Shown piece by piece: positions 23,119 to 25,227 of a stretch of DNA of 64,000 nucleotides. Origin of the DNA: Ectothiorhodosinus mongolicus (lineage in GTDB: Bacteria; Pseudomonadota; Gammaproteobacteria; Ectothiorhodospirales; Ectothiorhodospiraceae). The position numbers were made by a program, and so were the translations under genes. The notes beneath the pieces are model-generated. The model had not been told where the DNA came from. It was given only the letters and a program-made list of their open reading frames with translations, and made no database searches. The stretch is from assembly GCF_022406875.1 (NCBI RefSeq), contig NZ_CP023018.1:531575-595574 (forward strand). Reading direction: 5' to 3'. Position 1 is the stretch's first letter. Every line of letters begins with the position of its first letter.

Positions 23119-23424
23119 ATGAGTTACTACGAACGGCATTTGTTTTTTTGCACCAACTGTCGCGAGGACGGCAATTGCTGCGAAGCTTTTGGTGCCAGCG
23201 AGATGCGCACCTATGCCAAGAAGCGCGCCAAAGAGCTGGGCATTCATGGCAAGGGTCAGATCAGGGTGAACAATGCCGGCTGCTTAGATCGTTGTAACGA
23301 GGGCCCGGTTGCCGTCGTCTACCCCGAGGGCACTTGGTACACCTATGTGGATGCAGCCGATGTCGATGAAATCATCCAAGAACACCTACTCAATGGGCGG
23401 GTGGTGGAGCGCTTACAAATCTGA
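23119..23424 (+). CDS. Thioredoxin-like [2Fe-2S] ferredoxin
   Basis: A 101-residue protein starting MSYYERHLFFCTNCRED. Its cysteines are arranged as CTNC...CC near the start and CLDRC in the middle, followed by GPVAVVYPEGTWY. This matches the thioredoxin-like ferredoxins of the NuoE/Aquifex Fd type, which bind one [2Fe-2S] cluster. The partner is not evident. I chose the ATG at 23119 by homology; the ATG at 23104 adds five residues. Confidence 0.85.
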   Translation: MSYYERHLFFCTNCREDGNCCEAFGASEMRTYAKKRAKELGIHGKGQIRVNNAGCLDRCNEGPVAVVYPEGTWYTYVDAADVDEIIQEHLLNGRVVERLQI

Positions 23425-23467: not shown

Positions 23468-23495
23468 TTGACATGTGCAGTGCAGCATATAGAAT
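23468..23495 (+). promoter_or_regulatory. Sigma-70 promoter for a short transcript before purH
   Basis: A perfect -35 box TTGACA (23468-23473) is followed after 16 bases by TAGAAT (23490-23495). The predicted start is near 23502. No gene follows before a strong terminator. Confidence 0.55.
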
Positions 23496-23501
23496 TGGAA
23501 T

Positions 23502-23594
23502 CATATCAAGCGCAGGATCTCCTCCGGTGCTTGGTATACTCCTCCATCCTCCTTTGGTGGTTTTTGGCGCGGCTTCTTAGCCGCGCTTTTTTTT
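23502..23594 (+). ncRNA. Candidate small RNA with three anti-Shine-Dalgarno CCUCC motifs
   Basis: A sigma-70-like promoter and a strong terminator enclose about 93 bases with no ORF. The transcript would carry CCUCC at 23521-23525, 23541-23545 and 23548-23552, two of them as CUCCUCC, and end in a GC-rich hairpin with eight U residues. Anti-Shine-Dalgarno C-rich motifs are known in several families of trans-acting small RNAs. It could instead be a leader that attenuates purH, but purH appears to have its own -10 box downstream. Not matched to any known RNA family here. Confidence 0.45.
23567..23594 (+). terminator. Strong rho-independent terminator upstream of purH
   Basis: An eight-base-pair stem GCGCGGCT/AGCCGCGC with a TCTT loop is followed by eight T residues. 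Confidence 0.92.
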
Positions 23595-23646: not shown

Positions 23647-25227
23647 ATGAGCAAAATCGCCCTCGCCCCTATTCGCCGCGCGCTGATCAGCGTCTCCGAC
23701 AAAACTGGTTTAGAGGATTTCGCCAAAGCCTTAGCTGCTCAGGGAGTCGCCATACTCTCCACCGGCGGCACCGCTAAACTTTTGGCGGATCTGGGATTAC
23801 CCGTCACTGAAGTCTCCAGCCACACCGGCTTTCCCGAAATGATGGCGGGCCGTGTCAAAACCCTCCATCCTAAAATCCACGGCGGTATTCTGGGGCGACG
23901 CGGCATGGATGATGCGGTGATGCAGGAACACGACATCCCGCCCATCGATCTGGTTGTGGTGAATCTCTATCCCTTTGATGCCACCGTGGCGCGCCCAGAC
24001 TGCACGCTGGATCTGGCTATCGAGAACATTGATATTGGCGGCCCCGCCATGGTGCGCGCCGCAGCCAAGAATCATGCCTCGGTCGGTATCGTGGTCGATC
24101 CGACAGACTACCCACGCGTGCTCCAGGCGATGCAAGAAAATAATGGCGCCTTGGCCGACGCCCTGCGTTTTGAGCTGGCTGCCAAAGCCTTTGCCCACAC
24201 CGGCCGCTATGATGGAGCCATCGCCAACTATCTCACGCGCATCAGTACTGATGGCCAAACTGAGGCGTTCCCAAACACGCTCAGCCTGCAATACCAAAAA
24301 CAGCAAGAAATGCGTTACGGCGAAAACCCACATCAGTCCGCAGCTTTCTATGTCGAGGCTCAGGGAACGGAACCCGGTATCAGCACCGCCCAACAACACC
24401 AAGGCAAGGAATTATCTTTCAACAACATCGCCGATACCGACGCCGCCCTAGAGTGTGTCAAACAGTTCTCCCAGCCCGCCTGCGTCATCGTCAAGCACGC
24501 CAACCCCTGCGGGGTAGCGGTGGCTGAAAGTCTGCTGAAAGCCTATGACAAGGCCTTTCAGACAGATCCCACCTCAGCATTTGGCGGCATCATCGCCTTC
24601 AACGGGCCATTAGATCAGGCCGCAGCGCAAGCCATCATCGAGCGCCAGTTCGTTGAAGTCATCATCGCCCCAGAAATCACCGCCGCTGCCCTACAAGTAC
24701 TCGCTAGCAAACCCAATGTGCGCGCCCTCTCCTGTGGCACATGGCCGACCCAGCCCAAGGCCGCCTGGGATTTCAAGCGCGTTAATGGCGGGCTACTGGT
24801 GCAAGATCGAGATCTGGGACAAATCAACGACAGCGATTTACGCGTGGTCAGCCAACGTCAGCCCAGCGCCAAGGAGCGCGAAGATTTGCTATTTGCCTGG
24901 CGCGTCGCCAAATTCGTCAAATCCAACGCTATTGTTTATGCCCGCGACGGCCAAACCATTGGCGTGGGCGCCGGGCAGATGAGCCGGGTGTATTCGGCAC
25001 GCATCGCCAGCATCAAAGCCGCGGATGAAAACCTCACTGTCGCCAGTTCAGTGATGGCCTCTGATGCTTTCTTCCCGTTTCGTGATGGCATCGATGCCGC
25101 CCACGCAGCAGGTATTGAGGCGGTAATCCAGCCGGGCGGCTCGATGCGCGATGAAGAGGTTATTGCCGCAGCCGATGAACATGGCATGGCCATGGTATTC
25201 ACCGGCATGCGCCATTTCAGACATTAA
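23647..25227 (+). CDS. purH: Bifunctional AICAR transformylase / IMP cyclohydrolase
   Basis: 526 residues, the normal length. The N-terminal cyclohydrolase domain shows [21 protein letters not shown] and [13 protein letters not shown]. The C-terminal transformylase domain carries [19 protein letters not shown] and the [22 protein letters not shown] region. It performs the last two steps of IMP synthesis. purD follows after ten bases, forming the usual purHD pair. A terminator lies just upstream of its promoter. Confidence 0.97.

Follow-up and report, generated by a model that had tools for sequence, protein, structure and literature searches.

A Conserved Small RNA Gene with Putative Anti-Shine–Dalgarno Function in Ectothiorhodosinus mongolicus and Other Gammaproteobacteria

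Computational analysis of a 64,000-nucleotide stretch of the Ectothiorhodosinus mongolicus genome (hereafter, the window) revealed a gene for a structured small RNA (sRNA), which is conserved across families and is independent of the purH gene located downstream of it. Taking the anatomy of this RNA together with the behavior of similar RNAs, we consider it probable (about 0.7) that the gene encodes an independent, trans-acting sRNA of ~93 nt with three hairpins, which would pair with the Shine–Dalgarno (SD) regions of mRNAs and block ribosome binding. As such, it would represent a widespread, apparently uncatalogued regulatory RNA of purple and colorless sulfur bacteria, groups for which no riboregulator of this kind was found described in the literature searched.

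Organization of the sRNA Locus

The elements of the locus and its two neighboring genes, all on the forward strand, are as follows (positions are those of the window).

23119..23424, + strand: thioredoxin-like [2Fe-2S] ferredoxin gene, an upstream and recurrent neighbor of the sRNA
23468..23495, + strand: promoter TTGACA-N16-TAGAAT (TTGACA at 23468-23473, TAGAAT at 23490-23495; 11 of 12 consensus matches)
23502..23594, + strand: predicted sRNA transcript, ~93 nt, underlying covariance model R1
23503..23537, + strand: hairpin 1, each of its five modelled pairs showing compensatory changes in the alignment
23519-23525, + strand: first CUCCUCC, within hairpin 1
23538..23545, + strand: anti-SD tract 1, ACUCCUCC, overlapping the 5′ arm of hairpin 2
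23539..23562, + strand: near-invariant 24-nt core CUCCUCCAUCCUCCUUUGGUGGUU, identical in 25 of 25 aligned sequences
23541..23560, + strand: hairpin 2, from folding and the alignment
23547-23554, + strand: anti-SD tract 2, the loop of hairpin 2, UCCUCCUU, with the third CCUCC
23566..23594, + strand: intrinsic terminator, with a stem at 23566-23587 (9 pairs) followed by a T run to 23594
23647..25227, + strand: purH, the downstream neighbor, not part of the sRNA element

The start of the transcript is predicted from the −10 box and its 3′ end from the terminator. As the first-pass annotation had proposed, a TTGACA/TAGAAT promoter and a strong terminator bracket about 93 nt devoid of a credible ORF; the single ORF spanning the sRNA starts at a TTG, has 60 codons, and continues across the terminator, and is not credible as a gene. 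The predicted RNA (23502-23594) has a folding energy of −40.8 kcal/mol (z −6.1), a value that 0 of 200 shuffles equalled. The three CCUCC copies noticed at the outset, two of them as CUCCUCC, are all present at the positions given above, and the alignments revealed that the second and third are kept, whereas the first, inside hairpin 1, is not conserved. The first-pass annotation had itself named conservation of the CCUCC motifs as a check, and two of the three copies pass it. Within tract 1, CUCCUCC (23539-23545) was invariant and the A preceding it was conserved in at least 90% of the 25-sequence alignment. Both conserved tracts are complements of SD sequences, the second of them lying in the largely unpaired loop of hairpin 2.

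Conservation and Phylogenetic Distribution

Of 96 relatives searched at the DNA level with the sRNA region, 57 gave a match, with a few weak rows among these covering the start of purH only. The block CTCCTCCATCCTCCTTTGGTGGTT was identical in all 25 aligned sequences, with hairpin 1 being variable. The covariance search in relatives that had been put forward as a check on the candidate extended this distribution considerably: within the class, R1, the model built from the sRNA, reached E ≤ 0.01 in 135 of 369 genomes, and those with known names were mostly sulfur-oxidizing Gammaproteobacteria. In a phylum-wide sample of 398 genomes, 17 matched R1 at E ≤ 0.001, and the six matches outside the class all scored below 28 bits. 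By pattern scan of named genomes, the core was found, among the matches listed, in Thioalkalivibrio, Thiocapsa, Chromatium, Halochromatium, Thiohalocapsa, and Sedimenticola, as well as in Thiothrix, Beggiatoa, Thiomargarita, Leucothrix, Arenicella, and others, in addition to one Gallionellaceae and one Comamonadaceae MAG. The nearest named carriers among the matches listed were Ectothiorhodospira shaposhnikovii and E. haloalkaliphila. No match to the sRNA was obtained in the plasmids and phages searched.

The genome of the window conserves one strong copy in the R1 search, the remaining hits scoring at most 26.5 bits and all lacking the core, and some other carrier genomes harbor two to four copies, some of them in tandem. 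Tandem pairs or triplets were seen at L125:5745-6054 (a Thiotrichaceae MAG) and in genomes G222, G190, and G347, an arrangement comparable to the NmsR siblings described below.

Two further observations concern the window's own genome (G000). A weak R1 match of 20.7 bits at an intergenic site outside the window (L063:1441-1572; G000:C1:1886854-1886925) comprises ACTCCTCCTGCTTAGCGGGGCC..GGCCCCGC and a T run, with a sequence similar to a sigma-54 (−24/−12) promoter, TTGGCACAGGGATTGCA, ahead of it; this site possibly represents a second, sigma-54-dependent anti-SD RNA. In addition, G000 measures 1.995 Mb in one contig, compared with 2.6–3.8 Mb for nine genus mates, which suggests genome reduction.

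Structural Covariation

Across 92 distinct sequences, the share of cells that pair was 96.8%, compared with 82.4% for shuffles and no more than 53% for slid controls, and changes on both sides of a pair amounted to 252 cells against 57 in shuffles; since this alignment was fitted to R1, the counts lean towards the model, the contrast being nonetheless large. Compensatory changes were observed in every stem pair of the terminator in this same set. A MAFFT alignment made without the model already contained four compensatory pairs in hairpin 1, and the 60 nt upstream of the core, folded alone and without an alignment, exhibited a median z of −2.5.

Proposed Mechanism and Candidate Targets

We propose that the sRNA would be transcribed independently from its own promoter as an RNA of ~93 nt with three hairpins. 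Two of its pyrimidine stretches resemble the 3′ tail of the 16S rRNA, namely, ACUCCUCC, which leads up to and into the foot of hairpin 2, and UCCUCCUU, which lies in the loop of that hairpin. Both tracts would base-pair with the SD regions of a set of mRNAs, and this pairing would block ribosome binding, leading to repression of the target mRNAs in trans. The transcription start, the pairing with mRNAs, the repression, and the targets are all predicted features of this scheme.

In the window's own genome, the leaders with perfect complements of 8–9 nt include those of nuoA and of the genes for a lipoate ligase, a TRAP-type receptor, and the DUF4212 subunit of a solute symporter, as well as the leader of a gene for an exported protein with no Pfam match, which we take to be DsrE-like. 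Some candidates recurred within the genus: of ten genomes, at least six had the DUF4212 gene among them, six a TAXI-TRAP-like receptor, four glnA, and two sdhB. The candidate names were assigned by reading the sequences, except for DUF4212, LplA, sdhB (Fer2_3), and nuoA. By analogy with known anti-SD RNAs, whose regulons resemble these candidate classes, and, more weakly, from the candidates themselves, solute uptake and central or energy metabolism are probably favored among the targets.

The controls call for caution. GGAGGAGT at start codons was not enriched over GGAGGAG[ACG] (155 vs. 777), so that the base that would lengthen the pairing shows no enrichment before start codons. The leaders of DUF4212 genes from genomes of the class with and without the sRNA (39 vs. 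39) differed slightly in run length (p 0.025, uncorrected), with a p of 0.14, also uncorrected, for duplex energy. The preference of the core for ribosome-binding sites over coding sequence was no greater than shuffled cores give, and near-full complements of the core in the own genome comprised, beyond the locus itself, three-mismatch sites only, in numbers similar to a reversed-pattern control. Because these controls do not clearly separate the candidates from ordinary SD sequences, the targets remain candidates, and we infer the mechanism from anatomy and analogy. Pairing with the SD sequences of many mRNAs, which the first-pass annotation had suggested, is retained as the best candidate mechanism by comparison with NmsR, NfeR1, and the toxic RNAs discussed below.

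The Invariant Core

The rigidity of the core poses a direct question, namely, what binds it. All five pairs of hairpin 2 were unchanged in the 92 sequences, whereas hairpin 1 and the terminator covary, and the same invariance was seen in the 25-sequence alignment derived from the DNA search; a stem frozen in this manner is not fully explained by simple mRNA pairing. This invariance, along with an affinity for ribosome-binding sites no higher than that of shuffled cores, speaks for a core that chiefly binds a protein or the ribosome, as a sponge or a 30S decoy, mRNA pairing being secondary or absent. However, the invariance is partly a matter of ascertainment, because most of the 92 loci were found via a pattern lying inside the core, and hairpin 2 has an anti-SD tract as its 5′ arm, which could be kept for pairing. 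Moreover, RNAs of the same layout work through mRNA pairing. On balance, we regard a core devoted mainly to a protein or the ribosome as unlikely, although likelier than the other alternatives, and favor a trans-acting RNA that would pair with SD regions.

Gene Neighborhood and Promoter Conservation

The upstream ferredoxin gene, the product of which produced a weak match to Pfam PF01257 (22 bits against a cut-off of 24.8), adjoins the sRNA in many of the top covariance matches; of the 104 named copies listed, 23 have it no more than 1 kb upstream in the same orientation. It may be the older neighbor of the sRNA, although the sRNA also occurs without it. This linkage would be consistent with the sRNA being the processed 3′ end of the ferredoxin transcript, but most of the named copies listed have no such gene next to them, and a promoter of the TTGACA type is kept widely in the interval separating the two, which makes this origin highly improbable. 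TTGAC was found upstream of the sRNA in 71 of the 85 related copies listed, frequently in the arrangement TTGACA-N12-TATTAGANAAT.

Many related loci also share a TATTA box, located after TTGACA and ahead of the probable −10 box, which could be the site of a regulator; the promoter of the window's own sRNA has no such box.

Linkage to purH is much narrower. Downstream purH was observed in 2 of the 101 named copies listed, both from Ectothiorhodospira, and follows the sRNA only in the window's genus (Ectothiorhodospira-type); in four genomes (G012, G015, G019, and G021), the DNA search placed the sRNA and purH at separate locations. The separation of the two in other genera indicates that the sRNA is an independent gene and not a purH leader, as the first-pass annotation had anticipated. 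Its related suggestion that purH has a promoter of its own fared less well: the TATAAT is present, but no promoter with a −35 box was found for purH. An alternative in which the sRNA acts in cis as a purH leader or attenuator, with signal-controlled read-through of the terminator, would accommodate its position on the same strand directly 5′ of purH in the window and in the genus; the occurrence of the sRNA away from purH elsewhere, the absence of any Rfam riboswitch match at the locus, and the presence of its own conserved promoter and terminator leave this alternative with barely any probability.

Taken on their own, the pattern matches would be weak evidence for an RNA gene, since shuffles would contain 0.8 promoter-like and 1.2 terminator-like sites by expectation, compared with one and three, respectively, in the actual sequence. 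A chance pairing of promoter-like site and terminator without an RNA gene is nevertheless practically negligible, since it is contradicted by the compensatory changes and by the cross-family conservation of sequence, structure, and promoter, and it is this conservation that decides that the locus is real.

Relation to Known RNA Families

At the gathering cut-off, neither the window nor any of 16 related loci matched an Rfam sRNA family, and literature on sRNAs in Thioalkalivibrio or Allochromatium yielded nothing on the sRNA of the window. The sRNA is thus a new family insofar as no Rfam family covers it. Its kind is already known, that of trans-acting anti-SD RNAs, with the pairing function assigned by analogy; in line with this kind, prediction and conservation define it as an independent gene with its own promoter and terminator.

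The closest resemblance was to the Betaproteobacteria toxic small RNA (RF02278), for which the window scored 34.3 bits, short of the cut-off of 50, with 0 of the 16 related loci passing. The sub-threshold similarity spans the core and the terminator, and the two RNAs share a CUCC-rich tract and a short hairpin with a C-rich loop closed by ..GGUGG, followed by a terminator, whereas the RF02278 core differs (UGUCUCCUCCACC..) and hairpin 1 is absent from its model. In the class, RF02278 matches many places also matched by R1, with 2 of the 369 genomes reaching its cut-off, and R1 scores the two RNAs that pass at 26–27 bits. Common descent of the sRNA and the RF02278 RNAs is likely. According to PMC7011215 (after Kimelman 2012), the toxic RNAs inhibit the growth of E. 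coli when cloned.

NmsRA/NmsRB of Neisseria (RF02877; 27.3 bits in the window against a cut-off of 52) exhibit the same layout as the sRNA, with three stem-loops and anti-SD tracts in the linker between the first two and in the loop of stem-loop 2. Both of these tracts have been reported to pair with the SD region of TCA-cycle mRNAs, repressing them (PMC5362039). The NmsRs differ from the sRNA in their core sequences and in being tandem siblings, whereas a single strong copy is found in the window's genome. A further parallel is offered by the rhizobial Alpha-r14/cuckoo RNAs, of which NfeR1 of Sinorhizobium silences transporter mRNAs and ntrBC through redundant anti-SD motifs (PMC10746234). 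Like the sRNA, these RNAs carry anti-SD motifs, theirs being unpaired and silencing at translation start (PMC10746234). They present CCUCCUCCC in each of three hairpins, whereas the sRNA has CCUCC, conserved only around hairpin 2; its sequence and fold have no CCUCCUCCC in the unpaired regions of the three hairpins, and the Alpha-r14 family gave no match in a sub-threshold Rfam search of the window. Two RNAs of Burkholderia, ncS16 (RF02866; 29.2 bits against a cut-off of 48) and anti-hemB (RF02837; 26.6 bits against 49.5), aligned weakly over the CUCC-rich part and the terminator.

A bolder and unlikely proposal is that the sRNA, the RF02278 toxic RNAs, and NmsR constitute one old superfamily of 16S-tail mimics within the GTDB Gammaproteobacteria. 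The frozen 24-nt core would then have, besides single mRNAs, the ribosome or a dedicated protein as its partner, and would set translation on a broad scale in sulfur-oxidizing bacteria. More generally, the sRNA may join small families catalogued apart from one another, namely, the toxic Betaproteobacterial RNA, NmsR, ncS16, and anti-hemB, in one group of RNAs whose regulation relies on imitating the anti-SD tail of the ribosome.
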